Assembly (NCBI GenBank): GCA_017506865.1
Contig: JAFCMP010000335.1
Span: forward strand, 558,001-622,000
Length of the DNA: 64,000 nucleotides
Direction: 5' to 3'
Origin: Tribonema minus
Taxonomy: Eukaryota > Sar > Xanthophyceae > Tribonematales > Tribonemataceae
The notes beneath the pieces are model-generated. The model saw nothing but the letters and a program-made list of their open reading frames with translations. It was not told the DNA's origin and ran no database searches. The position numbers and the translations under genes were made by a program. Positions 1-61,644 of the stretch are shown here, piece by piece; position 1 is the stretch's first letter; each line of letters starts with the position of its first letter.

Positions 1-3000
1 CGCGGCTCTTCGACGCTGCCAGCGGCGACGCGCGCGCCGCCGCGGAGGCGAGCGCCTACCGCGAGTGCACCTTCGCGCCCGCCATTGCGACGCGCGAGGC
101 CAACGAGCGCCTCCTCGGCGGCCGCAGCGCGCCGCTGCTGGCGCGCCTCTACGCGCCGGCGGCGCTGCGCGAGCGCGACGCCGCGCTCACCGAGGAGCGC
201 GCGCGCGCCGAGCTCGAGGACTGCACGTTCTCGCCGAAGCTCGTCGCGAAACGTGGCGGCAGCGGCGCTGCTGCCGCGGGGTCGCCGCGCCACAGCGCCA
301 GCGGCAGCGGCGACGGCGGCGGCGGCGGCGGGGAGGCGACGGTGCACGAGCGGCTGTTCCAGGACGCGGCGCGCGCGCGGGAGGCGACGGGGCGGCGGCG
401 CGCGGAGCTCGCGGCGGCGGCGGCGGCGCAGTGCACGTTCGCGCCCGCGCGCGTCGCGAGCCCGCGCCATGCGCGCGCCAGGTGTGTCAGCGCTCCGCTG
501 CCTGCGTATGTATGTATCTGTGTGTGTGTGTGTGTCGTATGGAGGTTGGTGCACAGCGCGCCGCTGGTGTGCGCGCCTGAATCAACATGCATCTTGCAGC
601 TGGTGAACGGGCATGAGATGCCGAGAGGCAGGCGGCGGCGGGTGGGGATGCATGCCTCTACTTGCTTGGTCTGTATGAAGCTGTCGGGGCTGAAATGGGC
701 ACTTGAGCTGCCGAAAATGTGGCTGGCATGTGCAGAGGTGAGCTCAGTGCACACCTGTCGGCGGCGGTAACAAAAACAGCAGCGCTCAACACTGGGTACA
801 CAGCGGCGCAGCACCAAAGCGCAAGCTACCAACATACCGCATGAGATGTGGCAGCGCCCAGGCGGCGGTGCTTAGCAAGGCGTGAATGCGGTGTTGCTGG
901 TCGCTGCTGCAGCGATGCTCAGCACTGTCGTTGTGACTCGGGGGGGGGGGGGGGCGGGGTTCGAACTGGAGGTGAGAGGTGTGCCGCTCTCGCTGCGGGG
1001 GATTGCGCAAGAATTTGTGAACTCACTCAAAGCCGTAGTCGCAAGCAGTCGCAAGCAGTCGCGGCCCGTGTGCTGGGGCATGTGTCAATTCATGCTTTGA
1101 GCACGACAGTGAGGCACGCAGCTGCACATCCTTGCTGTGCGAAGGACTTTCCTCCAGACTCTATGAGGTGACAATCCGCGCACACAAGTCCCTACTCTAC
1201 TCAAAGTGGCCACTCAACTTCAGTGATGAAGTGACTTGCACACAAAACCTCACTCTGGTCAGGACGCCCATGCTCCCCCCTCTCCGGCTCCGCGCAGCAC
1301 CGGCGGCGCCGGCGGCACTCGCTCTGCGGCAACACGTTGAGGCGATTGTGCACTGCCCATCAACCCCACACTTGCCGCAGTCACTCAACTGCGCTCCTCT
1401 TGAACTTATCCCTTTTGCGAGTGCGCCATCGCCTCACCTTGTCACGGTCCCCGCGACCGCGCGTCTCCCGCTGCGCCCAGCACCAGCGGCGGCGCCGGCG
1501 CAGGCTTGTCACAGTCACTCAACTTCACTCTTGAAGTTATGCCTTCCATGCGTACGCCATCACCTCACCTCGTCAAATTCCCCGCGTCCGCGCGTCTCCC
1601 GCTGCGCACACTTGAGATCATCACTTCCACCGACGCCTCACTTCGTTGTGGCCCCCGTCTCCCGCTGCTGCGCGCAGCACCGGCGGCGCCGGCGACGGCC
1701 TCGTCTCAGTCACTCAACTTCACTCTTGAAGTTATGCCTTCCAAGCGTGTGCCAAAACCTCACCTTGCCACTGTCTCCGCATCCAACCGTCTGCCATTAC
1801 GCGCAGCACCGGCGGCGCCGGCGACGCCCTCGCCGTCCACGAGAGGCTGTACGCCGTGGCGGCGGCGGCGGCGGCGGCGCGCGCGGGTGCGGTCAGCGGC
1901 GGCGGCGGCAGCAGCGAAGACCCCGAGTGCACGTTCACGCCGCGCATGACCAGCAGGAGCACCAAGTCGGCGCCGGGCAGCAGGTGCGCAGGGGGCGGCG
2001 CAGGCAGCAGCGCTCAGGATCTGGCTAGGCATGGTTGAATCTGGCCTCTGAGTTGATGTGAGCGCATCTGCTGCGCTGGCTCTGAGTTGATGTGAGCGCA
2101 TCTGCTGCGCGTCTGTAGCGCCCGAGACACTGCAAGCGCAGCTGCTGGATGTGCTGCCTCGCCAGCGCGAAACAGCTGGCACAACAGCTGGCAGCGCAGG
2201 CGGGCAGCGCTGGCCGGATGTGATCGGATCGGATCTGGCCAGATTTGGTCTCGGTACATATGGTGCTGCCAACACCCGCAAACATCAGCACCATGATTCG
2301 AAGCATGTGGTGCCCGAACAGCACAGAGCAGCCGTCGGCCCTCCCACAGAAGGTGCAGAATTTTGCAAAAGCGGAGGCCACGTTGCGTGGGCAAGGCTAC
2401 TGGTATGGTGTTTTGCTTTTGTGATTTTGCGGTATCACTGGAGAGGCTTCGAGCTTGTCCAGGTCTGGTCAGAAGTCTGGATCATGGGCATCGGCAGGCG
2501 ACATGTATTTATGGATGTGGGGCACCAGTGTACGGGGGTCAAGTCAGCCTGCATGATGCGTTCGGGTTAGGGATAGGGTTAGGGCAATTCACTCCGGTGC
2601 TGATGCAAGAGTTTACGCGACGTGCACTCCCATGTGCCCACGTGGCTCATTCACTCACTCCCCCCCGTTCCTTCATTCATGACCGCCGGCACTGCTGCCA
2701 GCCCCAACAGAGAGGTTGTGGGCACGAGAGGGTCATTGCAGATGACGGCGCCCCTACAACATGGAGCATGCATGTAGGCCCTGGTTCTTTACAATCCGAC
2801 TTCATGAACTCATGAGTTCATGTTCATGAATGACAGGCGCGCCAGCCCCAAGCGGCACACCGCAGTACAGTATGAGCAGGGCAGGGCGCTCATGACGCAA
2901 TGATGGAGCCGCTGATCGTGACATACAAATAAAGGGAATTGATGAATTCATGTTCATGGTCGAGGGCCTGATCATGACATTGTTCGTGAATCTATGCATC

Positions 3001-5607
3001 CATGTTCATGAATGACAGGCGCGCCAGCCCTCAGCGACGCACGGAGGAGCTGTACGAGCAGGGCAAGGCGCTCATGACGCATTGATGAAGCCCCTGATCA
3101 AGCCTTTCTTCATGAATTCATGTTTGTGAATCACAGGCGTGCCAGCCCCGAGCGCCGCACGGAGGAGCTATACGAGCAGGGCAAGGCGCTCATGATGCGG
3201 CGCTCCATGAGCCCGCGCAACCCCGCCGCCGCCATACGCGCGCGCGAAGAGGCGGAGGAGCTCGAGAAGTGCACCTTCAAGCCCAACACGAGGTACGTAT
3301 GTATGTATCTGAGTGAAACTTGAAGTTTTGACACCGTCATCATCTGCAGAATTTCCAATACTGAAGGCGCTGCCCCAACTTCAACTTGCTCAGTAACCAA
3401 GAGGTGCAGATGTTTGCTTGCAAGTCTGTGCGTGCACCTTGGCACCTACAAAACCTTAGCAACGCACCGTTCCTCTGTCAACAATGCAAGTCAGCAACGC
3501 ATGTGCAATTGGATTATCATCTCCAAAAGTATCACCGTAGCTGCCACAACTGCCGTGCCCCCTGCCCTGCCCTACGAGCACATTTGCCTCCCAGCATCAA
3601 ATTCTGCATGCATGTCAGCGCCGCATCCCCCCCCCCTCCCCCCCCCCCATTAACAAATTCACCGACACAAATACCAACATCAAGTCGTCAAGCTCACACG
3701 CATCGACCCCCCTTCCCCCCCCCCGCAGCCCCACGAGCAAGTCCGCCTTCAAGCCGACGCGCCGCGGCAACAGCTCGCCCGCCTCCGTCTTTGACTCGCT
3801 GCACGCGGAGGGCGCCGCCATTGCCGCAGCGCGCGCAGCCGCCGCCGACGCCGCGCGCGCCGAGCACTCCTTCGCGCCCGAGCTGCTGTCACAGAGCACT
3901 GCCACGGGGCGCTCGCTGGCGCCCAAGCGCCCAGGTATGCAAGGCGATTGCATTCGCCACGCTGATATGCAATCCTGATGCATCCACAGTTTCCAGCAAT
4001 AAACAGGTGGCGTGCGCAGAGCAAGCAGTAGCGCGCGAGCTGCTGTGGCGGCGCACTGCCACGGTACGCTCGCAGGCGCCCAAGCGCCCGGGTAAGATAA
4101 TTGATCACATTTGCCGCTTTGAGTGCAAGCTTGATGCATCCCGGTGCTCGGCCGCTGAGGCGGCGCATGTAAAGTACGCATTCGCGCTCCAGCTGCTGTC
4201 TCGCCGCCACGGGGGCGCTCGATCGCACTCCTAAGCTCCCAATTTCGATGATCACCGAATGCCGAACATTAATGGTGTGTCCACCTGCTGTCGTAGAGCA
4301 CTGCCTCGGGATCGCACGACGGTGCCCACACGGCAAGGCATGATGCTGTTGAGTTGCGCTCAAGTGCGGTTTCGCTGCATCCGCGGTGCTCAGCATCAGG
4401 TGATCGAGAGCGAATGGGCAGCATACATACCCAAGCGTCCAGCTGCACGGGCGCTCGGCAACGGTGCTCGACTGCCGCCCCCTCTGCAGCATGCACACGG
4501 GCCCAAGCTCTGACGTGCACTGCGTCAAAGGCGAAGTCGGTGTCGTGCTGCCCTTCTGAGCGCTGCCACGGACAGCTCTCACCGCCGACCGACGTCCGTA
4601 GATGCTTTGTGAAAGCGCACGCTCAAGTTCCTCTGACCGAGACGCCCACCCTGGCGTTGAGTGGCACTTTCAAACCCCAAGCCCCACACCTGCACCCTTG
4701 CAGCAGCGGCTTCCACCACCTCCAAATGCTGACCCTCCAACTCTGACCTTAACCCTGCCCCTAACCCTGACCCCCATGCCCTCCGCTGATTGATCGATAT
4801 TTTTGGAAGAAGGTTTCAATGCGATTGTCAAGGGGCAACCTATTTCTAAAGTTGGTATACCACAACCCTACAAAGTAACTCTCAGCCCTCTACCGCAACG
4901 TCAATCCACGCGCGCGCAGGCGGCGTCGTCTTCGCGTCGCTGTACGCGGACGGCGTGAGGCAGCGCTCCGAGGTCCCCCAACCCTTCACCCTGACCCTAA
5001 ACCCTTTACCCCAAACCCCTTCGACCCCGATGCTCCAACTCTGACCGCCACCCTAACCTTAAACCCTAACCCTAACCCTAAACCCTATACCCCAACTTCA
5101 ACCCACACGCTCGCAGGCGGCGTTGTCTTCGCGTCGCTGTATGCAGACGGCGAGAGGCAGCGCTCCGAGGCGGCGGCGCGCGCGGACGCGGGCCTGCGCT
5201 CCCCGGAGGAGACCTTCGCGCCGACGCTCGTCTCCAGGCCGCCGCCCGGCGCCGCCAGCAGCGGCACGTGCCGCCCGCCGCTGTCGCCGCGCAGCAGCGG
5301 CAGCACCGGGCTGCCGCCGCGCTCGCCGCAGGGCACGCGCAGCAAGGCCGGCAGCGCCGCCACCGCCGCCATGGCTAACGCTGCCGCTGCCGCCGCCGCC
5401 GCCGCTGCTGCGCCCCCTGCGGCCGCTGCGGCGGCGGCGGCGCCCGCTGCCGGCGCTGCTGCTGCGGGAACGGGGGCGCCGGAGGCGGATGTGGCTTCAA
5501 CGGAGGCTGCGACCGATGATGCCGTGGCAGTGGAGGAGGCGGCGCTGGCGGCAGCGGAGAACGCGGCTGACGTTCCGCCGCCGCCACCCTCCTCTGAAAC
5601 TGCGTAG
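1..5607 (+). CDS. CTFxP-repeat protein, 3' part (5' end outside window)
   Basis: Five exons join in one frame: <3-481, 1807-1983, 3137-3292, 3729-3934 and 5117-5607, using GT-AG introns with matching phases (2, 2, 2, 1) and a TAG stop at 5605-5607. The visible part is 502 residues. It alternates a short motif of the type (R/S/E)-L-(Y/F/H)-x-(D/E/V)-(A/G), for example RLFQDA, ELYEQG and SLYADG, with the motif CTF(A/S/T/K)P about 30-45 residues later. Examples are ECTFAP, DCTFSP, QCTFAP, ECTFTP and KCTFKP; later copies decay to HSFAP and ETFAP. The C-terminus is a long Ala/Pro/Glu tail. Proteins with repeated CTFxP motifs are common in protists, but I know no firm biochemical function for them, so none is assigned. 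Exon edges at 1807, 3137, 3934 and 5117 have degenerate tandem copies in the neighbouring introns. The exon structure is well supported; the function is unknown. Confidence 0.72.
1261..1806 (+). repeat. Exon-edge array: copies of the acceptor and start of exon 1807
   Basis: The end of this intron repeats the segment made of a Pro-rich CTC/CCG tract, the acceptor (GCGCAG) and the first bases of the next exon (CACCGGCGGCGCCGGCG). Exon-like edges are seen at 1298, 1481 and 1678, and the one used in the gene model is at 1807. A partial unit lies near 1612. Spacing is about 130-200 bp. The linking sequence, with CAGTCACTCAACTTCACTC, is shared between units. This is a tandem duplication that crosses the intron-exon boundary. 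Confidence 0.75.
2045..2112 (+). repeat. 34-bp tandem repeat, two copies, intronic
   Basis: Two nearly identical 34-bp units containing TCTGAGTTGATGTGAGCGCA lie side by side in the intron after exon 1807-1983. No coding potential is apparent. Confidence 0.7.
2562..2584 (+). repeat. Degenerate telomere-like repeat (GGGTTAGGG)
   Basis: The intron holds GGGTTAGGGATAGGGTTAGGG, a short interstitial TTAGGG-like tract. Similar tracts recur at about 4740-5095, 8297-8313, 26825-26850 and 34645-34670. Confidence 0.5.
2815..3136 (+). repeat. Exon-edge array: copies of the acceptor and start of exon 3137
   Basis: The sequence CATGTTCATGAATGACAG followed by the first ~65 bases of the exon (GCGCGCCAGCCC... 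to GCTCATGACGC) occurs with edges at 2837 and 3019, then as the real exon start at 3137. The copies keep AG and read like the exon (GCGCCAGCCC, GAGCAGGGCAAGGCGCTCATGA), but then diverge and would run into stops. Period is 182 and 118 bp. Confidence 0.8.
3935..4470 (+). repeat. Exon-edge array: copies of the 3' end and donor of exon 3729-3934
   Basis: Downstream of the donor at 3935, the exon end (GAGCTGCTGTC, CACTGCCACGG, GCGCCCAAGCGCCC, then a donor) recurs at about 4025-4093, where a good GTAAG donor is retained at 4092. More decayed versions lie at about 4185-4240, 4290-4350 and 4440-4470. Here the duplication carries a donor rather than an acceptor. Confidence 0.7.
4735..5116 (+). repeat. 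Telomere-like CCCTAA/CCCTAAA tracts around a copy of the exon 5117 start
   Basis: The intron before the last exon contains several degenerate CCCTAA, CCCTAAA and CCCTGA tracts (about 4745-4775, 4985-5030 and 5050-5095). Between them, edge 4920 is a ~50-bp copy of the start of exon 5117 (GGCGTCGTCTTCGCGTCGCT, GAGGCAGCGCTCCGAGG) with its own AG acceptor. The copy lies 197 bp before the real one. Confidence 0.7.
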
Positions 5608-8017: not shown

Positions 8018-8159
8018 CTATAGCGCAAACATCAAATGTCTGCTGCACAGTGTACACATGGCTTCTTGTGCAATACACAGCTGCCCTCGTCAGAGGCTCT
8101 TTCGTCCTGAATGTCCCTCCTAGATATAAGTGCGAAGAGGAGTTGCTGTTGTGTATCCT

Positions 8160-8345
8160 ATAGGGGCCCTCGCTAAATAGCCCCCCCCACACACAGAGGT
8201 TCATGAATTCCATCCTATAGGGCCCTAGCCAGCCCCCTGCACGAAGAAGGCGTGGGCGTGCGTACGGCGTGCGCAATGACGCCCCGCCGGGCCAGGGTTA
8301 GGGTTAGGGTTACGGTCCGCTCGCGGACCGTGACGCCCGGCCGAT
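8160..8345. repeat. Short direct repeat, TTAGGG tract and perfect hairpin
   Basis: The near-palindromic segment ATCCTATAGGGGCCCT at about 8156 recurs as ATCCTATAGGGCCCT near 8211. It is followed at 8297-8313 by three tandem TTAGGG-like units, and then at about 8313-8332 by ACGGTCCGC-TC-GCGGACCGT, a perfect 9-bp-arm hairpin. This lies just beyond the 5' side of the decayed retroelement. Confidence 0.6.
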
Positions 8346-10129: not shown

Positions 10130-13038
10130 CTAGTCAGAGCGTTCAGCGACATCGCCGCCGAGGGCGCGCGCGGCGTTCATGATCTTGAGGCGCGGCCCCT
10201 TGGGGATGCCCAGGTCGGTGAAGTCGGCCTCGCTCATGAGCTGCGCAGCGTTGGAGTTGAGGTTGGGACTAGGGTTAGCGTGGCGAAAGTTGGGATTTTG
10301 AGTTAAGGTGGACGCAGGGCGGGCACGTGAGCACTACGGACGGCGCGCGAAATGTGCCCGTAGAGTGAACAAACCCGCTCGTGAAAAAGCCGACAAGGAT
10401 ATGGCAGCGCTCGACCCAGTGATCGAGCGGCTCAGTTCTGCAAATGCAATCAGCGCAAACAGCAGCACGCTTGGCCTGCGGCGCGCTGCGGCGCTGCCTC
10501 CACAAAGGCAGCGCACAGCAGCGCTCAGGCATCGCGTCACAGCGGCTCAGATCCACAGGCAAACACGGACGCACGTGCATACGCCTAACAAAACACAGCG
10601 CGAACCACACCACCGACACCGCGCGCCTGCACGAGAGAGGCAGCAGCAGCGCTCAGCCCCTGCCCCACCTGCAGCGCGTCCAGGTCCACCTCGTTCTCCT
10701 CGAGCGGGCGCGCGTACTTGGTCAGCTTGAGCGCGCACAGCAGCTCCGCGAGGCTCGCGACGCGCGCCGCCTCGCACATCGCCGCCGCCGAGCCCGAGGA
10801 CGCCGACGACGAGCTGCGGCGCTCGCGCTCCTCCGCTGCAGCGCTCAGCGTCGAGGACGGCGCCACGCCGGCAGCAGCAGCGGCGGCGGCGTCGACGCTG
10901 TGGTGGTGGTGGCGGCGCTCGTGCTGCTTGCCGCCACCGCTGGTCACTGTCGTCATGGCGGCAGCGGCAGGCGCGGCGCTGCCGCTGTGGTGGTGGTGAC
11001 TGCTGCCGCCGGACGCGTGCGCCTCGGCGCCGCCGCCGCCGCCAGCAGCGAGCCCCGCCGCCGTCGCGGCGGCGGCGGCGCTGAACGCGGCGGCGCCGCT
11101 GAACAGGCTCCACGACACGCCGCCGCTGCTGCGCGGCGAGCCGCCGTGCGACCCCGCGCCGCCGCCGCCGCCGCCGCTGTGCGAGTGGCCCGACCCGACG
11201 CTGCGGGGTCTCTCCTCGGACTCGGCGTCGGAGAGCGCGCCACTGCCGCCGCCGCCGCCGCCGCTGCTGCCGTAGTCGGAGGCGTGGAGGATGGCGCGGC
11301 GCGCGTGCTCCGCGGCGGCGGCGGCGATGATGGTCTGGATGCGGCCGCACGCCATGTGCACGGCGTGCGCGTTGCCGCGGATGATGACGCGCGCCATCTT
11401 CTTGTTCACGACCACCTGCGGGGGCGGCGGGGGTGTGCGGTGGTGGTGGTGGTGGTGGGGGGGGGGGTGCACGGTCGCGTCAGCATTAGGGAAGTTGGCC
11501 GCCGACGCACGCTCGCGGCGGGAAACGGTGCGACGAACGACCTGCTTCCTTGTGAGCAACTGTACCCATGTTAATGAATGAGCTAGGCGTTTGCGTGCTC
11601 AAATCATTTCGAGAACGGAGCAAGAGCTTATGGCTCAAACCCTAGGCGAAGCACCGGCTCCTGAAGTTACAGGGCGCAGCGCCCAGCTGATCCACAACAT
11701 TGTCTCCAGAGCTTGCAGTACGCTCAGTGACCAGTGCTGTGCAACCGCGTCGCACTGCTGAGCGTCAAGGCCGCCGCGGAAAGCAGGCAGATTGGGTGCA
11801 GCGGGCAGCGGTCTAGCCCCGAGGCAACATCAACATGTGGACGCAATTCTGGACTCGCGGCGGTCTTCGTTGCGCACTCAATCTGCACGTCACAAGCGGC
11901 GGCTGTTGGGATGCAGCAACCCCAGAGATGGTGCGTCGCCCTCTGAGCCCAGCTGCCCGCTACAAGCAACCACTGCGCCCGGTACAGCAATGCGCGTGCG
12001 GCGCAGGGCCAAAGACTGGAGCACACGGCAAGCACCAGCGACGAAGCTGCAAATCAGCTGGGCGCTGCACAACCGGCAGATGCGATGCTCCCAGGTCAAG
12101 TCTTGCGGCGCCCCCCTGTCCTGATCTAGCATGACAGAGGTTTGCTGAGTGGCTAAACAAGAAAGCATGCAGGCACCCGTCGGCATCAACTTTAGTTCGT
12201 GTCACTCACTCTGCTGTGCTCGAAACATGAATGTGGCGCGATGCAACAGGCGTGAAAAGGCAGAGTGTGCAGCTCACGGACTCGCGCACCTGTGCACGCG
12301 TCTCCTTGACGATGCGAGCAATAGTCGCCCTGTCCCCCAACATGTCCAGCAGATGGGGGGGACACTCGAGGGACCGCGTCACCGCCGCCTCCACAGCGCC
12401 CGCCTTGATGGGCGCAGCAGCGACGTACGCCTCGACGCACTTGGCAGCGTGCTCCACCGCGCAGACGTCAGGGCCCGTTATCGTGAGCTTCAAGGCTCTC
12501 TGGTCGACCCACATGTTGCAACCCGTCTTGTTCTTGAGATCCTTGATTGTGGATCCGTTCCTTCCTATGACCCACCCCACAACCTCAGCGTCGATGTCCA
12601 TATCTGGCAAAAAAAAAAGCGAGCAGGGCCAGGGCGGAAGTACCGGTCGCATGTTAGATCATCTTCCGCATTCTGCAAGCACGCAGAGCAGGGCGAGCAT
12701 GTGCACGTCCAAGCTTGACATGAGCGTTTCATAGCCGTCCGCGCAGCCAGAGTCCGCTGCTACAGTCAGCTTGGCAATGCAATCAACGTTTGCTGCTCTA
12801 CGATATCCCACTCAAATTGCCACTTCAACTTACCACATCTTATGAAGCCCTGGCACCTCTTGATAGAGTAGGGGGAGAATGGCGCCATGATGTTATTCAG
12901 CAAGCTGAGCTCGTCATACTGCTGCCGCTCCATGTCGCCAGGCTCGCCGTACAGGTGTGGCAATTGGCCAGGTGGAGGCGTTGCCCAGCCTTCGAGGTTG
13001 TGGTTGAAGGGCCACAGCGGTCCTCCTAGCTCCACCAT
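10130..13038 (-). CDS. KH-KH-SAM domain protein, Bicaudal-C-like
   Basis: Four exons on the minus strand join in frame: 13038-12834, 12603-12290, 11415-10669 and 10240-10130 (458 residues, TAG stop). KH1 (about residues 66-133) has a good nucleic-acid-binding loop, VIGRNGSTIK, with GRNG at 82-85. KH2 (about 146-205) is split by an intron and has a degenerate loop (GDRA at 158-161). Then comes a long Gly/Ser/His/Ala-rich disordered linker. A C-terminal SAM domain (about 394-449, NEVDLDALQ joined to LMSEADFTDLGIPKGPRLKI) is also split by an intron. KH repeats plus one C-terminal SAM is the architecture of animal Bicaudal-C, an RNA-binding translational regulator whose SAM domain polymerises; the same role here is inference. 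The start is the first ATG of the first exon (MVELGG). Only introns 2 and 3 are in phase 0. Confidence 0.8.
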
Positions 13039-23419: not shown

Positions 23420-26400
23420 ATGCCTAGAATGGAGCCGGTGAGCAAGAAGTTCATCAATGCGGCAGCCGATGTGGTCGTGGAGCAGCTGGAGGGAGTTGCG
23501 CTGTCAGATCCTGAAAGAGTTTCTTTCGTGCGTGGCGCCAATGTGCTGATTCGCAGCGATATCGAGGCCGTAAAGCAGAGGTATGGTCAGCTGACCAGCT
23601 GCTTGTTTCCCACCACCATTTGTTAGCTCCACTTCTTGCCTGCTTTGCAATCAGCAACACAGTATTAGTGAACCTCTCCTCTCCTTCAAGTGCTTGAACA
23701 TGTGCATGTTTCTGCTATTTACTATCGCGAGAGCCGCTCTTCTAAAGTGTGGTGCTGACGTCGCAGCGCACGGTCCGACTACTTCTCTTCAAATTTCACA
23801 AACTGCCTCTATCTATGATTCAAATTTCACAAACTGCCTCTATATATGATTATCAGCTGACATCAATGTGGGGGTCCTCTCCGGGTTTGGCCAGCAGCAT
23901 TCTGTGTGTCGACATGTATGGGAATGAAAAACGAATCAAAAAGATCGTTGAGCTCTAGGTGACAAGGGATGGTTAGCCGCAAGTGCCTTCCACCAATAAC
24001 CGTGGTCGCCGCTGCTGCAGTCGAGTCAAACAGTGCCACCATAACCACAGTAGACACCGTAACCACAGTAGACAAAAGACTTCTGTGTGCAAGCTTTTTA
24101 GCGTTCGAGGCATGGGTGTTCAGTATGGACAGGTCTCACGTGTTCGGTAGGCCAGCTCCAGCCCACAGCCCAACACAGAGGTTCAGCAGCTTGCGACAGC
24201 GCTCTTGAATGCGTGTAGTGCAGAAGGTGATGAACGGGTTTTGAACCAATCCGTGCGGCGACACGGTGGCTCCATGTTGTTTAGCACGAGCTGTCCGTAG
24301 CGTTCTCCTTTCCTCACCTACGAGCAGTAGCGTGACACTATATGCGGCCCCCACACACGCTTCCCGAGCCTGGTCAACGTGTGCTCTTGCAGGCCTGCAA
24401 TCTTTTTGCTAGTAGGTAAAGATCAAATGCGCTTGCGGCTCTACGGCATGATTGCTCTGACTCTGTCACCGCCCCCAAAGTGGCGCAGTGCCTGATTGCA
24501 GGAAGTCACAGCACGAGCTAATGGCTGCCAATGTTTCAGGAACACATCTGCTGCTAGGATAGGCTCTGATTGTTTGAGCGTTGCGAATTTGTGCTCTTTA
24601 ATGGTACTGTCCCTGTTCCATGAATCAAGGGGCGCATGCCTGTGAGAGCACCTTCTGTAGTGTCATGCTCGCAAGCGCTCGAGCACCTGTTGTGTGGTGC
24701 CCACAAGTGCAGGCAGAACATGAAATCCATCACTCTCAACTCCACCCGTTCGTGGGTAGATACACCTGCAGCTGTACTCACATAAGCCTACTTTGACAAC
24801 TACCATATTGCAATGCACTTCATTAGTTGAACTCAACCGCCTCGTCCCCCCGACTACATTAAAATGCAGGCAGGTCACGGTGATCACTGGCGGCGGCTCC
24901 GGGCACGAGCCCGCCTTTGGCGGTTACGTGGGCCCTGGATACCTGAGCGCTGCTGTGTGCGGAGGCGTATTTGCAAGCCCTTCGTCCAGCGCGGTTCTGA
25001 CGGCAATACGCACGGCGGGGGGGGCAGCGGGCGTGCTGGTGATAGTCATGAACTACACGGGCGACAGGCTCAACTTCGGCAAGGCGGTGGTGAGTCGCAC
25101 CTTTGTTGCGGTTTGTGAAATGAAGTTGATGATATGGCTGTGTGTGAGGTGATGTTGAACTTCACAGTTCACTGCGTGATGACTGTGTGCAGGTCAGAGT
25201 CGGAATGGCTGATGCGGTGCTGGTGCTGGCCGTGAGAACCGCACATGCAAAGAATGAGTTGTAAACACTCTGCCTCTTTGCAGCCGCACCCAGTTTCTTG
25301 TCTCTGGCGCGTAGGTACTTGTCAGGGGGATGTATACCTACATACATATACACAGCCGACTACCCAGGCGCCAGGCTCACCTTATTAGCAAGGCAGCGGC
25401 GCGCTGACCTAAATGCCACACATTGGGGGCGGCGGCAGCTCTACAGCGCTAGGTGGCCAGGCCAAGTGGTGGCTGGACACAGTATGTATGGCCCTTAAAG
25501 TATGCGCATTCGTTCACCTGCCGCGTGCGCCCGGTGCATCTGCACACGCAGGAGCAAGCCAAGGGGGAGGGGCTGAAGGTGGCGATGCTCATCGTAGGCG
25601 ACGACTGTGCGCTGCCGAGGTATGATAATCGCACCATGTGAAGGTTGCCATTGTGTTGTAATACCTACTTACTCAGGTCAAAACGGTGTGTGGTGATGAT
25701 CAGTGACAGCGCACAGCTCAGCGCAAGTCGATGTTGAGTCCTGTCGGGCACTACGTGGCTGCCATGTTTGGCGTCCTGCTTCTCAATGATCACTTCTGGC
25801 AACTCATGCGCTAGTCGCACGCCTTCTGTCTACTTGGGTCCATTGGACGTCCATCTCTGGCACGGCGGTGACTCAATCATCATTGGTATAGCAGGTTACC
25901 TTTGTGTAGTATACCTACATGCTCAGATCCAGGTGTGGTGATGAGCATCATTGGTCAAGCGCCTTCGCCGCAGCGTTCAGATGCGAAGGCACCACGCTTT
26001 GCCAGGCTTTGCAGCTGACTTTGATGCTGCCACACAGTGTTGCAATGGCAAACATCAGATGGCTCGCACAGATGCCAGTTTTTTGCTCAAGCTGCCGCCA
26101 AACCCCCCACCTGACATCCTCAGCTGGTCACCCTGTATCGCTGATGATGATGAGCCAACTCCAACAGAATTCAAACTTAATGTTCAAAGATGCGGTCACC
26201 AAGCTGCCCCGCGTTCGTGCTCTGCATTCATGCTGTGCGTCTCGTGGGCCTCGTACACCGGACACCGGCCTCAGTGTACAAGATGCTGAGCCATGTATGC
26301 ATGCAGTAGCTGCACGCCAAAACACTCAATGTGCAGCGCCAGCTTATGGCAGCACATTTGGCGCCGCCCCCTCTGATTCAAAACGTCATGTTTGAAGTTG

Positions 26401-29400
26401 TGCGCTCGCTCGCCCTCGTGCACGTGAACCGCAGGGACAAGGGCCTAAGTTTGATCTTGTGCCCTCAGCGCTCAACCTCGCACGCGTGAACGTGAACCGC
26501 GGGGACAAGGGCATAACGGGGCGGCCTTGATGCACAACTTCAAGTTTGAACTTGTGACCACAGCGCTCGAACCTCGCGTGCGTGAATGAACCGCAGGGAC
26601 AAGGGCATAACGGGGCGGCGCGGCATCGCTGGCACCATTCTCGTACAGAAGGTCGCGTGCGCGGCGGCGGAGGCGGGCATGGCGCTGGACGAGGCGAGTA
26701 CATGGCAGTGCTCAGTCCCAGGTTTCTTGTTGATCTATACTTGAAGTTTGAAGTGCTGCGAGTATCGCAGAGGTGGAGTGCTGCGCGTCCACAGCAGTGC
26801 TCAGACCATGTTTGACGGGATTTAATGTTAGGGTTGCGGTTAGGGCTAGGCTTTGCAATTGCAGGTTGACTGTACGGTCTGGGGTTATCTGGGCCACCAT
26901 GCGCGGGGGGCGGTGGAGGGCTGCACCTTCTGCATTGCGCATTTTACCCTAGATTGCGAGAGCGCTGGTGGACATGGAACCTCGGAAAAGTGTGGAAGCC
27001 TCAGTGCTGATGTCATGTACTTCAACTTCAAGTGCAAGTCAGCGGCAGCTCACCATGTCACGCAGTGAAGTTGCCAAGTAGACTGTACAGCTCTAGCTCC
27101 TGCGCCAGACCATTTCATTTCACGCAAGCGGTGTTGCAGACTGTGGTCACGACCCAAGTGCTTTGCAGCCGAGGGACTGAATGCTTGGCTGCTATGACCG
27201 CTTTGTCTTCTTCGCACTGCTGATGCCATGGCTGCGTTCTGTCCAAGGCGATGCGGGCGGCGGAGCATGTGGTTACATGTTCATATTTTCCTATTCATTT
27301 CGTTATCTTATTTCTTAAGTCCTCTTTGCTTTGCTGATGCCGTGCCTGCAGGTCCTGGCGGAGGCGACGCAGGCAGCGGAAAACGTGGGCACCATGGGCG
27401 TGGCGCTGACAGTGTGCTCGCTGCCTGGTCAGCCCGCCAACGCCAGGCTCGATGCGGCCACCATTGAGGTGGGCCTAGGTATGTACTGCAATGTAGAGAG
27501 CCGCTGTTGCACCACACCCGCAGAGCTCCACATCAAGGTGACAAATGCAACAAAAGACCGACGCCAGTAGCGTGCTGCTAGGTTTGAATGTAGCTGTAGT
27601 CTGTCTACCGACGACAAGTGTATCTGCCGTAACTGTCAAGCGTGCAAACGACAATGAGCATGCAACTGCCATATGCTCCAACATTATGTACTTGTGAGAC
27701 TCTCATTTATCTGTGGGGGTGCTATCAGTGTGTGATGCGTGCATACGCAGCAACAATCGAACATCAAGTAGATGATCACCCTCAGCCTTCAAGTTGCCAC
27801 AACAACGTTTCATTGGTCACCAGGCTTACATCTGCTTAGTCCACCCGAAGTTCGGCTTTGAGGGGGGGGGGGGGGGGGTGGCTTCTGCGCAAAGCACCAG
27901 CTGCCAGGCATGCTTAACATGAGATACAAGGCTTTAACAAGCGGTGCGAAGCAGACGGCTGCGTTGTCCAACTGAAGTGCGGCTTTGAGGGGGGGCGGCA
28001 TCGCTTCTGCGCGATGCACCGGATGGCCGGCATGTTGAACCTCAGCCGAATCTCTGCCAGCCAGCGTGGCTGCGGGGGTGCTGCGCTTGTGCCTGCTTGC
28101 TTGTGCAGCCTTGCCGTGCCACCGTCGAGTCACCCCTGCTAGCAGCCCCAGTGCAGCAGCGCTCAGTTGTCGCACAGCCGCAGCGCGACACTGAGCAGCC
28201 TCAGGATGCGGCTGCAGTGCAGCCCCCGGGGCCCCTTCCGCAGCTGCCTGACAGTGCTGTCACACGCGCATGGCTGGCCGCATATGGTGGCATCCACGCA
28301 CAGAGGAGGCCATCTGAGCAGCTGCGTGATGTCTCCGTTATAACGGCTAAGTTATATCGGCTAAGTGCTGTGACTGCTGAAAGGCGACACGACGCGCCTG
28401 CTCAGATGCCCCCCTCTGTGCGTGGCTGCCACCATATGTGGCCAGCCGTGCGTATGTGACAGGAGTGTCAGGCAGCTGCAGAAGGGGGGCCGCGCTGCCG
28501 CCGGATCCCGAGACTGCTTAGTGTCACACTGCGGCTGCGCGGCGGTTGAGCACTGTGGCTGCGCTGGGGCTGCTAGCAGCGGTGACTTGACGGTGGCACG
28601 GCAAGGTTGCACTAAGAAGCACAACAACCCTGCAGCCCCATAGACTCGGCTGAGCTCCATCATGCCGGCCAGCTGGTGCTTCGCGCAGAAGCGGTGCCGC
28701 CCCCCCTCAAAGTCGAACTTCGGTTGGACTAAGCAGCCGTCTGCTTCGCACCGCCTGTTCTTGGTGTCAAGCATGCCTGGCAGCTGGTGCTTCGCGCAGA
28801 AGCGTCGCCGCCCCCCCTCAAAGCCTAAGCCCGCAGCGACCAAGCAGCGTTCCGCTTCCCACCGCTTGTTCGCTATGTCAAGCATGCCTGTCAGCTTGTG
28901 CCCCGCTTCAGAAGCAAGGCCGCCCGCCCTCACAGCCATTGCTTGCCTCCTGCTTCGCACTGATTGGTTCTTTATGCCACGCATGCTTGCCAGCATATGT
29001 GGCACAATGCACCTGTTCCAGTGTAGCAGGTATGCTGGACGGACAGCAGTCATTATAGAAGTATACATATGACTCGGTACCTCTGTCGCACTCTTCCAAG
29101 CGTCAGATAGTCCAAGTAGAAGCATACACTTGCGCTAAGCGAAGGCGGCAGGCACAGTCGGCGTGCGCTTGGCTCTGTAGCCTTGTGTGATCAGCGTCTG
29201 CGCGAGCGCGGGTGCTCTGATCTAGCGGGGGGCGTGTGATGTGTGTCTGATGCATCGTGATGCTACTCACATGCTGCACGCATTCACGGCGAGCCTGGCA
29301 TGAAATGGCCACCGCTGGCACCTGTCGATGACCTTGCTTCCGCAATGCTGATCGCAGTCACTCGTCTGTACACCTACCAACGGGCACTTGTGGCGTGAAA

Positions 29401-32400
29401 CGGCCGCCACTGGGTGCCTGTCAAATGGCCTCGCTTGCGCAATGCTGATCGCTGCCACTCGCCTATACATACCTACCCGCAGGCATTCACGGTGAGCCCG
29501 GCGTCAAGCGGCAGCCGTGGGGGACTGTCAATGACCTCGCTTCCGCAATGCTGATCGCTGCCACTCGCCTATACATACCTACCCGCAGGCATTCACGGCG
29601 AGCCCGGTGTCAAGCGGCAGCCGTTGGCGCCCGCAGACGAGCTCGCTGCCGTGATGCTGGAGGGGATTGTAGGGGGTGCGGACCCCTATCTGCCGCTGAA
29701 GCAGGACGAACAGGTAGAGTGAATTCGACATAAAGACAGCGGAATTTTCCAGGTAGCGTGAATTTGACATGAAGACAACGAAATTTTCCAGGTAGAATGA
29801 ATTCGACATGAAGACACCGAAATTTTCCAGGTAGAGGGAATTCGACATGAAGGCAACAAATTTTCCCTCCGCCCACGCCTATTTTGGTCAAGAGTAGGTG
29901 AGGGAAGTGGGGTGGAGAGGGGGCGGGGGCTTTGTGGGATTATGCAGGATTATGCAACGGGCTAATCCCTGAAATCTGCTCCTAGGGGTGGCGGGGGAAA
30001 GACCAGGATGGCGATGCTGGGTATGAGGAATTGACACGTCACATCGTTTTCTTGATGCACTGAAGTTGAAGGTTGAGGTTGAAGTTGAGTGGGGGGGGGG
30101 CGCGGACCCCTATCTGCCGCTGCAGCAGGGCGAAAAGGTAGAGTGGTGCTCGCTGCGCATGCGAGGAAGCGAAGGGTCACATTAGTTTCCTGACTCGCTG
30201 AAGTGGGGGTTGACGTTGAAGTTGAGTGTGGGGGCGCGGACCCCTATCTGCTGCTGAATCAGGGCGAACAGGTAGAACGGCGGTGCTGGGCATGCGAGGA
30301 AGCGACGGGGTCACATAGTTTCCTTGACATGCTGAAGTTGACGGTTGAACTTGAAGCTGATGGGGGGGGGGGGGGGGGGGGGGGACCCCTACCTGCCCCT
30401 CGAACTGTCACTCGCCTAGTCTACTACTACTACCATGCGCCGTGGGCGCTGGGGTTGTTGATGTGAGGGGTGTGGCTGTCGCCCCAGGTGGGCAAAGCTC
30501 CGCATCGCATCTGCTAACATCAAGTGACGCCGTGTAACATGCGCCGCCATTTGCATTGCCAGATTCGATGCGATGGCTCTCGAAAGACTTGCTCACGTCA
30601 GGCGACGGCCACACCCGTCACAGCGACAACCCAAGCGCCCAAGGCGCATAGAAGTTGGGTAACGGCACCAGCAACGTCCGCCGCATAGCCGAGCTGCTGC
30701 CGCTTGGCCCGTGAGAGCTGCCCCCGAGGAAGTGATGGGGGGTTACACCGTTTCCTGGAAGCATTGACGTTGAGAGTTGAAGCTGAAGATGATGGGGGCT
30801 GGCAGAATGGCCCCATGCGGCGGCAGCTCAAGTATGCGGCGCAGGTTGCTGGTACCGTCATCCAACTATGAGCTCGGGTGGTCGCTGTGAGGGGTGAGGC
30901 CGCCGCCCCAGGTGGGCAAGCTTTTTTGAAAGAGCCATCGAATCAGAGCTGGTAATCCAACGACCGCCGCTGTCTCACGGAGTGCTGTAAAAAAAAAAAG
31001 GGCGCCCCGCCCCTCAATCAGCCCCTGAGACGGCTTGCGCGTGCGGCGGGCACCCCCTTGGCTCCCCTGGCAGGCCACGGTGTGGCAGATGCCAATTTGC
31101 AGCATGCTCGTGCCTGCTCAACAGTCTAGACTTGGCTTTGACCGCCTAGATTGCTGCTCGCGCTTTGTGCGAATGGCGGCGCATGCCACACCGTGGCGGC
31201 GCTGCATGAGGGCGTCGGCTGCCAGTGCGCTCGTCGCGCGGCTGACTGGCGGCGCCATCTGCATTCTGCAAAATCATGATCTGCACATGATCATGAGATT
31301 TGCACAGTCATCATCTGCACATGATCACGCATTCGGAAGCCACGCGTGCATCTCCACCTCCCAGACTGCCCTGAACACGTGCCGCAGAGACGACCTTCAG
31401 CACTGCACCACCACGTCACCGACTCATCTGCGGGACGTTGTACCAACCTTTATCAAATTGTCACCCACACCATGGCGCGCATTACATTACATGACTGCTG
31501 TGAGGCGGTGTGGTTCGTCGGTTTGTTATGCGGATCGAGTGCCGTGCGTGAACGATGGGGTATGTACGTAGTCCCAGCGAACTGAAGTTGAGCGTTCGCA
31601 TCCAAAGGGCCGGGGGGTGGGGGGGGGGGGGGTGTTCACGGTTCTGTGGCGTGTACATGCACCTACGTTTGGAGGCCGCAATTCACACGAAATAGCAGTC
31701 ATTGTCACAGAGCGGCGCACAGGTGATGCGGCAACGCTCAGCTGCTGGCAGCGCTCAGCGCGTTGGGACACGTTGACTACATAGTCACCGGGCGTCTAAG
31801 CTGCGTTCACGTCGCCGGTTTGAGAACTACGACGAAGTACTGTGAAGCATGTGATGTGATGTGCATTATCTCACTCAATGACGTATTTCCGCGGATAGAA
31901 AGGCGCGGACTGGACTGGTCCCTTTGAGATCACTGAAATGCGCCGCCTAATTCTGCCCCCCCCGTCCCCCCAAAAAGTAGTCGTAATGGTCACCCGTCTC
32001 TGGTGGGTAGTGTATCCACCAAAGTTCGCCGCCTGATTACGTGACCCCCCCCTCCCCCCCTCCCCTGCATGCGCCCTCACACAAACAGGTAGTCATAATG
32101 GTGAAGCACCCCTGAGGCAGTGTATACACAACAAAAGCCCCCCCCCCCCCCCCCCCCCCCGCCCCCCCCGTCTCTCCAACAGTAGTTGTAATGGCGAAAT
32201 TCCTCCGGGGCAGTGTATCCACAAAAAACGCCACCTGTTCTGCACCCCACCTATTCTGTACCCCCCCCCCCCCCCCTTACGCTAACAGGTAGTCGTCATG
32301 GTGAACAACCTCGGGGGCAGCACCAAGATTGAGGAGGCCATCGTGAGCAGAGCCGTGCTCAAGGGCCTGGCGCAGCGCGGCGCGTGCGTGAGGCGCGTGT

Positions 32401-35400
32401 TCTGCGGCCACTTCATGACAGCGCTCGACATGTGCGGCATCAGCGTAACTGTCATGAGGTATGTGCGCTGACTGACTCAGATGATTTTACATGCTTCCTG
32501 TAGGTGCTTAAATGGGCTTTAAACCCCATCAAAGGTTAGAGTGGAGACACATCATGACACTGCTCAATATGTGCGGCATCAGCGCGCCGGTCATGAGGTA
32601 CGTAATCGACAGGCGTGCTTTATACATCACCATAAAAAAGCGTGCAGAAAGTTCATGACAGCGCTCGACATGTGTGGCATCAGCGTAACTGTCATGAGGT
32701 GCGCATGCGGCATGTGTGCTTTGAACATAACCAGAAGCTTTCAACATCACCATAAATTAGCACGCTGACACTTCATGGCGGCGCTCGACATGTGCGGCAT
32801 CAGCGTCACCGTCATGAGGTACGTGCGTGTGCTGGCAGACTCACATGAAGTTGTACGCTCAGGCATGCTTGGCACTCCCATCCAAAAGTAGGGTGCAGAT
32901 GAATCGACACGCTCACGTGTGCTTTACACCCCATCAGAGATTAGAGTTTAGGAACTTCATGACAGCGCTCGACATGTGCGGCATCAGCGTGACCGTCACG
33001 AGGCACGTATGCTGGCAGGCTCAGCACACGGATGAATTTACACACTCAGGTGGGCTTAAGACTTAGCGCACGGATGAATTTACACACTCAGGTGTGCTTC
33101 ACACCCCATGAGAAAGAAGAGTGCAGAAACGTCATGGCAGCGCTCGACATGCGCGGCATCAGCGTAACCGTCATGAGGTACGTATGCGGCAGGTGTGCTT
33201 CAAACACCGTCATAAATTAGCGTGTGCTGACACTTCATGACAGCGCTCGACATGTGCGGCATCAGCGCCACCGTCATGAGGTACGTACGTGTGCTGACAG
33301 ACGCAGATGAAGTTACTCACTCAGGTGTGCTGTACACCCCATCAGAAATGAGAGTGCAGACACTTCATGACACCGCTTGATATGTGCGGCATCGGCGTGG
33401 CCGTCGTGAGGTTTGCACGCATATGCGCACGCTGGCGGGCTCTCGGGTACCTGCTGTCCGAAGAAGTGAGGTGCGGCCACTTGCCGTGACAGCGCTCGAC
33501 ATGTGCGGCATCGGTGCAACCGTCATCAAATGCCTGTGTATGTATGTACGTGCCCACTGTGCGCACTGTACATACCCTTGAAAGTTTATATTTGGGCAGT
33601 CGTCGCGTTTGCGGGGTCAAGGCCTGAATGACAGATCCCATTGCAGTGTTCTGGCAACAGGCCCCTCTCTTCACGTGCGAACAGTGGTGCATGAGACAGG
33701 CAAGGTCCTCCAAGCAGGCAGGCGCAAGGTCAGCACCAGGCAAATAAGTGGATCATGCGGGCTGCCAGCGCTGCGCTCCTGACCGTGACACCGCTTCCGC
33801 TGCGCCCCGCTGCCCGCACGCCAACAGAGCAGACGCGCTGACGCTAGCGCGGCTCGATGCTGCCTCCGCCGTCCCCGTGTGGCACGGCGGCGCCAAGCTG
33901 CCGCGCGCCGCCGCCGCCGCCGCCGCGCCGCAGCCGCGCTCTGCAGCGAGTGCAGGTGGGCACATGTAGCGCTTGCCGCCTCTGCGGATTTCGGCAATGC
34001 AGCTTTCGTCAGCGTGTCATGTCCCAGCACCGGCGCAATTCAGAAATGCAGCTTTGGCTAGCACGGCATGCGCCAGCGCGCTGCGCTTGCGGGGAACGTC
34101 ACACTTGCGTTTACAGTGTGCAGTGACCTCACAGCTTAGACGTGGGAGCATGTCGCGCTCGCACCCTCCGCAGCTTCCAGAAGTGCAGCTTTGGCGAGCG
34201 TGTCATGCCCCGGCGCCTGCACTGCGCTTGCGAGGAGCGTCACACTTATGTTTTACGGTGCGCAGTGACCTCACGGCATGTCCCCTCGCTCGCGACGTGT
34301 TACGAACTGCAGTCAGGCTTCACACAGCAGCAGGATGGTCGCTGTGCTCAACAGCCATTAAAGGGTCTGGCATGCGTCATCATGGCAATTCTGAGATGCG
34401 GCAGCGTTGCTCAGTGCTTGCCCGTCGCACGGCTCAGCCCAGGCGCGTGCTCCGTGTCCTGGCGTGATTGTGTCTTACGAATGACATATCTTTAGAGCTG
34501 ATCATGGGCACTTAAGCATCGCTTGCCTGCGCACCTTGCGGCACGCGCCCCCACGCATCAGTGGCTCGTTCACAGCAGCACGATAATATCGCCTCGGTCA
34601 GTCGGGTCAGCGGGTCAAAGGTGAGGCGTATTGGGGCCAGTCTCAGCGTTAGGGCCAGGGTCAGGGTTAGGGTAGAGTTGATACGCACTCAAGTCGGCCA
34701 GATTCGCTGCGCTGTGAGCAGTTGGCACCCTGTGTACCAGGCAGAACGCTGCGCGCATCTGCCGAGTGCTGCTCACACCTGCTGGCCGGCGATAATTCCA
34801 AGTGCACGCATGCCCATTTCCGCCACGCAGCCGCAGCGGAGGCGCCCTCTGCCGCGCAACGACCCGCAGTGGCACCAGGGCCTGCCGCCGCAGTGGAGGC
34901 AGCGCTCAGAGCGGCGGCAGCAGCGCTCATCGCCGCAGAGCCTGAGGTACGCTGCAGCATGTATTGTGTATTGGTGGTTTGCTGTTTGGTGCCGCAGCGG
35001 TTCGAATGACATCGCTCAGCCGATTGCACTAAATATTTCTATGCAGTGACCTGTGCAATTTCAAACAGCAGCGCTCAGAGCAGGGGGAGCAGCAGCGCTC
35101 GCCGCCGCCGACGGGCCAGCGCACACGGCAGTGCTTTGGTGTTGCCGTTTCCTGGGAAAGACCAGTCGCTTGCAGCGCCGCACCCGCCGCATGCGCCTGC
35201 GGTGCCGGACGCACATGCCATCAACGCCACCTGTGATGAGCGCTGGTGTGAGCGCTGCTGCCGCTCTACAGCCCTTCTATACAGGTCAGCGGCCACCACA
35301 AGGTTGTGGATGTCTGTTCTTAGTAATCAGCCTCCAAACGCGCATGACCACGAACTGCTGTGCAAGCCACTTAAGGTCGCGGGGGTAGGGTTGGCTTCCG

Positions 35401-38400
35401 CACGCCTTTGCGTCAAAGGAGGCTCGATGGACCACGGCGACTGCCGCAGGGCATTCCAAACGCATGTGGGCACACGGCCATCACTCAAGCATGCTGCTGT
35501 CACCAAGTCCCCGACGCTCGGCTGCAGCTGCGGGCGCCTCCAACTAGGGCTAGGGCTAGGTTTCAAGCTAGAGTACAGACGCTGTGCATCAATTGCGCCA
35601 ACGTTGCATGCAATGCCTCCACCTCTCTCAAACATGCTGCCAGCGCCACGTCGCACTGGAGTGCTCGCTCGCCGGTCGCGGCGAGTGAATGTCAGAGTCA
35701 GGCTCACCCAGCACTGAACAGGCGCCGTCCCAGCCATCGACCCGTTGATGCCGCTCCATACTTCTCTAGGGCTCTGTCTGTCGCAATCTGCAGCTGTCGA
35801 CGTGCGCGCAGCCCAATCAGAATCACAGCGCTCGCTACCACACAGTCATTGCTGCCGCACCACCTGAGTTAGGGTTTCAACTGCTGCCGCCTTCATCCCC
35901 TGCCCGACCGCCGCACTGCCCCTCCCCACTCCCCCCTCTCTCGCGCGCTCCCTCCCGCGCGCGCCGCCGCAGCTGACCAAGTGGGACTCTACAGCAGCAT
36001 CACGCCCCTCGTTTGCTTGCTGCTGCCTTCACCCCCCCACCGCCGAGCCGCCCCCGCACTCCCCTCTCTCTTTTGCGCGCGCTGACGCAGCTGACCAAGT
36101 GGGACTCGCTGGCAGAATCACGCCCCTCGTTTTGCTTGTTGCTGTGCTGCCTTCATCTCCGACACCACCGCCTACATGCCCCCCCCCCCCCCCCGCGTGC
36201 GCCGCCGCATCTGACCAAGTGGGACTCTACATCAGAATCACGCATGCCGCTGCCGCTGATCAAGTGGGACTCTACAGGAGAATCACGCCCCTCATTTGCC
36301 TGCTGCCGCCTTCATCCCTGACATCACCCCCCCCCTCCTCCCCCCGCGCGCATACCGCCGCAGCTGACCAAGTGAGACTCCAAAGCAGAATTACGCCCCT
36401 CATTTGCCTGATCCTACCTTCATCTCTGACCTCACAACTCAATGTCCAACACCACCACCTACACGCCGTGTACGCTGCCCCCTCCCGCGCGCGCATACCG
36501 CCGCAGCTGACCAAGTGGGACTCCATAGCAGCATCACGCCTCTCGTTTGCTAGCTGCCGCCTTCACCCCCTTTTCTACCGTCGAACCGCCCCCACACTCC
36601 CCTCTCTCTCGCGCGCACGCCGCTGCAGCTGACCAAGTGGGACTCCATAGCGGGCGACGGCGACTGCGGCGAGACGTTCCGCCGCGGCGCGCAGGCGCTC
36701 CTGAGCGCTGACGCGAGTGCCGTTCCGCGGAACGATCTGGCGGGGCTGCTGCGCGGCGTCGCCGCCGTCGCGGGAGGCGCCATGGGAGGTGCGTCACCCG
36801 GCATTGAGGTTCTGATCGCTTTCTGTTTGTGCGTTGAGGTTTATAATTGACCTTCGTGCTTTGCGCTGACGCGTTGCGCGTGGTCAAGGGACGGCCAAGG
36901 GGGCAGCGCCGCAGTTGCAGTAGTTGCTTGGCGGTGCGTCACTGCAAGTGAAGTTGAAGTTTTTTCGGCGCTTCACAACTTCCATACTGGCATTCTGCCG
37001 TATGGTGTCTCACAACGTGGAAGGGTGCTGCACACAGATGCCAGTAGTCGCTTGAAAGCGCGTCACCACAGCTTGAAGATTTAGTCGCGCTTCATCAGAA
37101 TCTGTATTGGCATGCTGCAAGGATGGTGCTTGTAATGTGAAGGGATGTTGTACAGCATTGCCTCTGCTGCCGGAGGGGCCATGAGTTGTGGCTGGGCATA
37201 ATCTAGTTCACTCTATGCGAAGTCATGTTTGTTTCCAGTGGGGCCTGGGGGCGGCTGCGATTTTCAAGTTTTGGTGTAGTGTGATGCTTAGATGTCGAGC
37301 CATCAGCAGTTTGGGTGGCAACATGAATACCATGTTCACAAACAGTAATGGTGTTCTCCTGTTCTTGGACAGTGTGAGCACTGCTGCCTGCACCCACAAT
37401 GACCATGATACTTACCCAACATACCCGTTCAGCATTGGCATCAAAGTAGTTATATATTCCACCCCCACCTCTCACCCTTCATTTCTGAGGTCGCGTTGGC
37501 CCACGATGGGCGCTTTGAGGGACCATGCCAAGGTCGATGGGGGCGACCTGAGTGTAAGGATGCTGTATGCATGTATGCTGACACCTCAAAAGATGACCGC
37601 TACCCTGCCAAGTGTGCACAAGCTTCTTAGCTCTGTGGTAGTGCCAGAGTCACCACAGTGAGCACAAACCTTGTAACCTTTATCAAACCTCAAGTGCCAC
37701 TTGACGTTGACACTGCCAGCCCGGTGCAAATCCAGCCCTAACTCTAGCACGCTGCACACGCGCTGCTGCCATGCGATGTGTACCCTTTTTGTGCGCTGCT
37801 ACTGCAGGCACCAGCGGCGCCATCGTGGACATCTTCTTCACTGCAGGCGCGGGCGCCGCAACGGAGGTGACGCCGCGCTGAGCACTGCTTGCATCTCGCA
37901 TCAGTGCTGTCCATGTATCACAGGAATAAATCAAAAGATTCTAGAGCCCTAGGTGACAAGGTGTGGTCAGCCGCAAATGCCTTCGACCAATAACCGTGGA
38001 CGCCACTGCTGCGGTTATTGGCCACAAGTCAAACAGTGTCACTGTATCCACAGTAGTCAAAAGACTTCTGTGTGCAAGCTCTTTGGTGTTCGAGACATCA
38101 CTAAGGGAATAGTGTACGTAGGCTATGCATATGCTTGGCAGTAAACCATGTTCCAGAGAAGGGCGCCGTGGACTCACTTCTGTCTGCACACTTCAATTGA
38201 AACCTGGCTCCAGTTGGCAGAGGGCTTTCGGGCCGTGGCGCATTTGAGTCAGGAGCCAATGAATCTGGCACTTGAAGCGGCTGCGCCTGGAACTTGACAT
38301 GGCAGAGCATGCTGAATTGACTGCGGCAGGGCCGGTTGCTAAACTGCTGTGTACGAATCTTCCACATTCAAGTTAGAGAAGGTGCAGCAGTGGAAGAGCC

Positions 38401-61228: not shown

Positions 61229-61644
61229 GTGCTGTTGACAACGTTTAATCCTGTGTAACGGTTTGCAGCCAGCAACACTTGGACTGTAACGTGTTAAGGC
61301 AGAACAGCACAGCAGGCTCAAGGAATTGGATACCGTAACGGGTTATGCTTCACTGTGTTGTCCTTGCTTGTGCTGGCATACATTGTGCCAACGAACGACT
61401 TAATTGTGCATTCCAGGTCTTAAACAACTGCTCTCTTACAACAAGTGATGTGTATAGGTTTATGGGTATGCTACCTTATTCTCGCGTGTTCTCTTGTAGT
61501 AGTAGTAACGTTGACCATAAGTGACTTACTGTTAATGATGGCACTGCTCTATTACACTACAATGAGTGATGTGCTCGCGTACTTGGACTTAGCCGTCGAC
61601 GATGCATTTGCTCACTTGCAATAATCATTCTTTACATGGCGTGT

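Follow-up and report, generated by a model that had tools for sequence, protein, structure and literature searches.

The question raised by this locus is why the edges of exons should recur within the very introns that adjoin them. The locus lies in a stretch of 64,000 nucleotides of the Tribonema minus genome (contig JAFCMP010000335.1, our C335:558001-622000; hereafter the window), and the assembly searched (GCA_017506865.1) amounts to 158 Mb in 554 contigs. Our answer, to which we give roughly two chances in three, is that introns are lengthened from their ends by tandem duplications that recur preferentially at exon edges. Duplication at exon edges is real and non-random in most but not all of the genes sampled, and it is probably neutral. 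Directly observed are the arrays that span exon-intron junctions, their being more frequent than chance or random duplication under selection would give, the sharp breakpoints of the copies, their neutral-like divergence and a link between arrays and intron length.

Copied junctions in the window

Four genes were modelled in the window: a gene for a protein with an ECTFxP motif, a PALP gene, a Dak gene and a KH-type gene. With splicing at the junctions given here (each coordinate is the first base past the junction) all four frames are open when the array copies are left out. A preliminary description had reported arrays at twelve junctions in three genes, at acceptors and donors and on both strands, and this was borne out. 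In a self-BLAST of the window each of the 12 places showed direct local repeats, several of which Tandem Repeats Finder also detected, and at least one copy is present at each of the 12 junctions, i.e. acceptors 1807, 3137, 5117, 19143 (reverse strand), 26597, 29589, 32289 and 36629 and donors 3935, 18361 (reverse strand), 29714 and 32459. A thirteenth copy-bearing junction, acceptor 27352, was absent from that description. The arrangement it described, with copies confined to the intron side and the real exon terminating the array, is forced by geometry, because any junction-spanning tandem duplication that leaves the exon body single would look the same.

The ECTFxP-motif gene (1807..5607, forward strand) has exons 1807-1983, 3137-3292, 3729-3934 and 5117-5607, with the frame open up to the stop, and a further exon ending at 481; a Pfam search of its protein gave no match and a PDB search no convincing one. 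Acceptor 1807 is crossed by the array 1211..1833, with copies 129, 326 and 509 nt upstream of the junction, all retaining AG, and acceptors 3137 and 5117 by the arrays 2801..3198 (copies at -118 and -300) and 4864..5170 (copy at -197), while the array 3841..4480 at donor 3935 holds a copy at +157 with GT; all lie on the forward strand. The PALP gene (18362..20368, reverse strand) is assigned to the PALP-family racemases/dehydratases (Pfam, E 2e-42) and has exons 18362-18553 and 18943-19143 and a third one with its end at 20147 and its start untraced, the Pfam match running from about 20368. Two reverse-strand arrays belong to it, 17913..18419 at donor 18361, with copies at 153, 292 and 433, all with GT, and 19065..19355 at acceptor 19143, found by self-BLAST. 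A candidate PALP acceptor at 20204 was dropped because the Pfam match continues through this position; it was still included in the 8-gene runs (the first anchor test, the 80% identity test and the repeat-cover profile), and later runs were made without it.

The Dak gene (24874..36788, forward strand) is a dihydroxyacetone kinase gene by its Pfam Dak1 match (E 3.5e-55), and its exons as traced give 402 codons without a stop. The first five traced are 24874-25089, 25552-25619, 26597-26693, 27352-27478 and 29589-29713, the last four 32289-32458, 33828-33955, 34831-34946 and 36629-36788. Self-BLAST found its forward-strand arrays 26374..26610 at acceptor 26597, 27205..27388 at acceptor 27352 and 31953..32320 at acceptor 32289, and, together with Tandem Repeats Finder, 29276..29659 at acceptor 29589, which has a 106-bp unit. 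On the same strand, arrays at donor 29714 (29652..30400) combine a 39-bp unit at the junction with farther copies of the exon end; the array 32403..33542 at donor 32459 repeats exon end plus donor in about eight copies by eye, four of them scored automatically; and 35881..36651 at acceptor 36629 contains six intronic copies. One further array (33956..34277, forward strand) starts exactly at donor 33956 and includes no exon bases. The exon ending at 26693 is followed at 26694 by GCGAGT, a GC-AG intron judged by frame. Inside a Dak intron, at 27832-28999, one segment occurs in inverted and direct copies (the inverted one 81% identical), away from exon edges.

The negative example in the window is the remaining gene (10130..13038, reverse strand), which has three introns and no exon-edge array; its KH/SAM-type domain names are presumptive.

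Placement of arrays relative to exon edges

The sample comprised 12 genes: the four window genes, six kinesin loci (L039-L044) and pieces of two genes which, from their translations, we take to be IFT172 and CAND1 (L012 and L015). A PDB search matched the IFT172 piece with the solved IFT172 chain 8bd7_S, the alignment covering 207 residues. The kinesin loci are a non-random pick, chosen by hand from a hidden Markov model (HMM) list for compact multi-exon spans, with repeats not considered, and their junctions were set by HMM positions, frame and splice consensus; those of L044 are approximate, being the ends of HMM matches, and one L039 donor was set at 3406 though 3426 scored top, both lying within the array 3341-3587. 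The IFT172 and CAND1 pieces had been fetched as matches to C runs and are the two of nine short extra loci that were modelled, with recognisable exons; L038, which has a single repeat close to a coding segment, was left unmodelled, and donor L012:1880 is ambiguous. Exon-edge copies are present in nine of the 12 genes, the three without any being KH, L041 and L044.

Arrays are a better unit of counting than single anchor points, because intron points within an array match through that array. In 39 complete introns 34 local arrays were found, of which 25 span a junction (17 acceptors, 8 donors). Random placement of the arrays, with up to 100 nt of exon allowed, gave a mean of 6.4 spanning arrays (maximum 18 in 5000 draws), and random placement of a 130-bp unit a mean of 4.8 (maximum 12). 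The proposal of a duplication process tied to exon edges is upheld by this excess and by the simulation described below. Spanning arrays make up 11/16 in the window genes and 14/18 in the others, namely 12/14 in the kinesins (2.5 and 1.9 under the two nulls, with maxima of 9 and 7 in 5000 draws) and 2/4 in IFT172 and CAND1 (1.2 and 0.9).

An old array could stay detectable through its conserved exon partner, and this advantage is removed when exons are masked and arrays are detected by intron-intron similarity alone. Under masking 27 arrays were detected, and 17 of them have an end no more than 20 nt from a junction, against 1.4 in the null (maximum 7 in 5000 draws); for the kinesins by themselves the count is 9 of 12, against 0.6. 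Placement nulls, masking and simulation together indicate that the position of arrays is not independent of exon edges, unlike that of an unanchored intronic satellite.

The same pattern could be a matter of survivorship: if tandem duplication were unbiased and purifying selection removed events that damage exons, those crossing one junction would survive and only appear to favour edges. Such an account explains for free why the real exon stands at one end of the array, and it agrees with the neutral look of the copies. We imitated it by a forward simulation of uniform tandem duplication in which exon-only, whole-intron and deep-exon (>110 nt) events were purged, and each array-bearing intron was grown to its present length from an assumed ancestor (present length minus 0.65 of array bases). 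The simulated spanning fraction was 0.20-0.23 over four degrees of array self-expansion, with a maximum of 0.47 in 240 runs, against 0.74 observed; the random-placement nulls fail as well, and we regard this explanation as unlikely. Similarly improbable, in our view, is retention by deletion, in which large deletions clear the middles of introns and those that reach exons are lethal, so that arrays at the edges survive. The profile of repeat cover (8 genes) is in its favour, being 0.44-0.55 within 300 nt on the acceptor side and 0.21 at 800-1000 nt, and 0.33-0.38 near the junction on the donor side and irregular far out. It predicts, however, that arrays near an edge which do not cross it survive equally, and most arrays cross.

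Single junctions were compared with intron points in an anchor test, in which a 60-mer was centred on the junction and a match had to span it, score at least 20 and lie within 3 kb. In the 12 genes matches were found at 22/44 acceptors, 12/45 donors, 107/468 random intron points and 23/110 points at least 400 nt from a junction. Acceptors are enriched over random intron points (p 0.0002), with the qualification that anchors sharing one array are not independent, and they match more often than donors (p 0.03). Outside the window the counts were 13/26 acceptors, 7/26 donors, 64/264 random intron points and 8/65 far points. In the window alone 14/37 junctions match (9/18 acceptors, 5/19 donors) and so do 15/45 far points, to which the acceptors are not clearly superior (p 0.17). 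At donor 1984 the match comes from a GGC repeat in coding sequence on the exon side, and the one at donor 18942 lies exactly at threshold, while donor 29714 carries copies yet escapes the 60-mer; in L043 one of six junctions has a match. An earlier 8-gene run gave 19/31 acceptors, 9/31 donors, 81/336 random intron points and 21/96 exon interiors, with 0/62 shuffled-flank controls reaching threshold. The excess over intron-internal matches that the preliminary description proposed as a test is present, in the 12-gene sample, for acceptors and for arrays with both sites pooled, and is barely seen for donors alone.

Fate of the copies and lengths of introns

Neighbouring copies have a median spacing of 130 bp (range 44-1732, weak and distant rows counted), and 102 of the local matches at the 12 gene loci are direct and 6 inverted. 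At 20 measured junctions the units hold intron plus exon sequence, the exon part measuring 17-89 nt at the 14 acceptors among them and 38-111 nt at the 6 donors, and the exon breakpoints are sharp and variable, with no common motif by eye. Each of the 20 measured copies includes one junction only, a separate search for whole-exon copies not having been made. Copies nearest the real junction tend to be the most similar to it, which a plain array predicts likewise.

For counts of identity and frame 66 of 75 copies were kept, four weak donor rows (five copies) and four distant PALP donor matches being dropped. Real junctions and their copies show an identity of 0.873 over exon sequence and 0.771 over intron sequence, the exon value being the higher one in 19/24 arrays; for pairs of copies the values are 0.818 and 0.770, and the exon value is higher in 6/14 arrays. 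This is probably what neutral copies would show when a single member, the real exon, is under constraint. AG is retained in 35/46 acceptor copies and GT in 14/29 donor copies (13/20 with the weak rows dropped). Splicing at a copy's site would keep the frame open in 8 of the 66 copies and break it in 58. A reservoir of alternative splice sites, suggested in the preliminary description, is therefore unlikely, since the copies look neutral and so few keep the frame.

Maintenance of the arrays as alternative or decoy splice sites is, more generally, quite improbable. The retention of AG and GT would suit it, and so would a peak of identity near the junction; the AG value of 0.76 is, however, the upper end of the 0.59-0.76 predicted for two bases from identities of 0.77-0.87, the exon-derived parts are not clearly more conserved than the intron-derived ones, and most copies would break the frame. 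The real site outscores the copy in 27/46 acceptor and 13/20 donor comparisons, which also means that many copies are still strong splice sites. Insertion of a mobile element (introner-like or otherwise) at exon edges, which would fit the many introns affected, can practically be dismissed, as in both searched cases the units proved gene-specific: among the matches listed, the Dak array 31900-33700 has no other match in the genome save its C-rich run, and among the best 40 scored candidates L040 shares nothing with other loci beyond a dispersed 65-bp stretch and, on two other contigs, kinesin exons, with no second copy of L040 in the assembly among the matches listed. That stretch (L040:2940-3004, about 65 bp in a kinesin intron between array copies) occurs on at least 33 other contigs with 81-93% identity.

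Array bases track intron length (Spearman 0.76, p 2.8e-7, 33 introns in nine genes), in line with the earlier suggestion that this is a way in which introns grow. A part of this correlation is built in, because array bases belong to intron length. The telling part is that introns with their array bases subtracted match array-free introns: the median is 566 nt without arrays (12 introns) and 1303 nt with arrays (21 introns), the latter falling to 611 nt after subtraction. Much of what separates long introns from short ones in the genes studied consists of such copies. In five chlorophyte genomes mean introns measure 230-462 bp (PMC5966456).

Under biased duplication at exon edges, segments mostly of 45-300 bp straddling a junction would be duplicated in tandem repeatedly, far more often than wholly intronic segments. 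The copy adjoining the exon body would stay spliced, and the remaining ones would sit in the intron with a splice site and some exon sequence (17-111 nt in the 20 copies measured), ignored and drifting neutrally; repeated events, more at acceptors than at donors, would extend the intron from its ends. The excess would then come from a higher rate of duplication at exon edges rather than from selective retention, possibly by way of chromatin, transcription or co-transcriptional splicing at exons, and the spliceosome may pass over the copies because each is without the opposite splice site of an exon. More tentatively, exon edges could in this lineage be hot spots of duplication owing to what takes place there (co-transcriptional splicing, pausing of the polymerase or nucleosomes bound to exons, for instance), in which case splicing architecture would direct growth and introns would lengthen from the ends inward.

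Several points weigh against biased duplication at exon edges. Only 12 genes were readable, and IFT172 and CAND1 were chosen with their repeat cover and repeat lists already known. Donors hardly exceed random intron points (12/45 against 107/468, p 0.34), no anchor matches in KH (0/6), L041 (0/3) or L044 (0/5), and all 14 kinesin arrays lie in L039, L040 and L042, half of the six loci. The excess shrinks when identity of at least 80% is required, to 6/11 spanning arrays against a null of 1.4-3.1 depending on the margin (P 0.0006-0.05, 8 genes), and the simulation omits deletions and divergence. The unspliced state of the copies is deduced from frames that are open without them. Identity profiles peak at about 0.82-0.91 around the junction, anchors 40-80 nt into the intron reaching 0.72-0.76 and exon anchors 0.84-0.86 (real-copy pairs included), and pooled copy-to-copy identity is slightly higher in exon-derived parts; there may be some extra constraint on copies near the junction. 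The peak mixes in real-copy pairs and a bias from how the copies were found, and the BLAST-based split into exon and intron parts was used instead. No cause for the edge bias was found; array bases differ from the rest of the introns in C/G runs of at least 8 (2.0% against 0.8%) and in GC content (0.60 against 0.58), which may or may not matter.

Related systems and other features of the assembly

The preliminary description knew of no named system that does this across many genes. A single junction-spanning event is in fact known, from the potato RdRp gene, where an intron was gained via one tandem duplication crossing an intron-exon boundary (PMC4974935). As there, the tandem unit holds the 3' part of an intron and the 5' part of an exon in the 17 of 34 arrays that cross acceptors here; unlike that one event in one gene, the arrays affect several genes, often with several copies per junction, and donors too. 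The potato duplication made a new spliced intron, whereas the copies described here, known from DNA alone, are without sign of use. In AGGT tandem-duplication intron gain, a local tandem duplication of DNA likewise alters intron content, but in that model an exonic segment with AGGT is duplicated into a new intron, while here units of intron plus exon lengthen an existing one. Tandem exon duplication and mutually exclusive exons (PMC9013439) also place exon sequence beside its source within a gene, with the difference that whole exons are copied and often spliced, in contrast to exon fragments with one splice site. Introners (PMC9860276), found in green algae among others, resemble the arrays as repeated sequence in introns, but they spread to many genes and make new introns, while the arrays are local and gene-specific in the two of 12 genes searched. 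For recurrent exon-edge arrays across many genes no account was found in the literature available, and one in subscription papers or under other wording is quite possible.

The lengthening of introns is poorly known apart from transposon insertion. A local, junction-directed process would explain, within the sample, why some introns are long and others short, and would leave countable traces. It would also offer a natural system in which to study whether mutation is steered by splicing or by exon chromatin, and by what means a spliceosome disregards several near-perfect copies of the sites it uses. In genomes of this kind gene predictors may call false exons.

Two contig pairs, C90/C179 and C144/C223 (L017-L036), about 80-97% alike in aligned blocks outside tandem arrays, had been considered as haplotypes for comparison of copy number. 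They look like putative endogenous islands of large DNA viruses. C144/C223 has long intronless frames, one of them a protein kinase, and C90/C179 has kinase hits. As haplotypes they were rejected for their virus-like frames (C90/C179 judged by composition and kinase hits only), and, being virus-like and intronless, they say nothing on introns. Elsewhere in the window, three long open reading frames (43509-45113, 47168-48748 and 58883-60262) have weak FNIP-repeat matches (Pfam PF05725), the first two within a 1.86-kb direct repeat that is 87% identical. Finally, the region 61344-63387 contains 248-bp segments, 96-97% identical and in direct and inverted orientation, as in a mobile element with complex termini.

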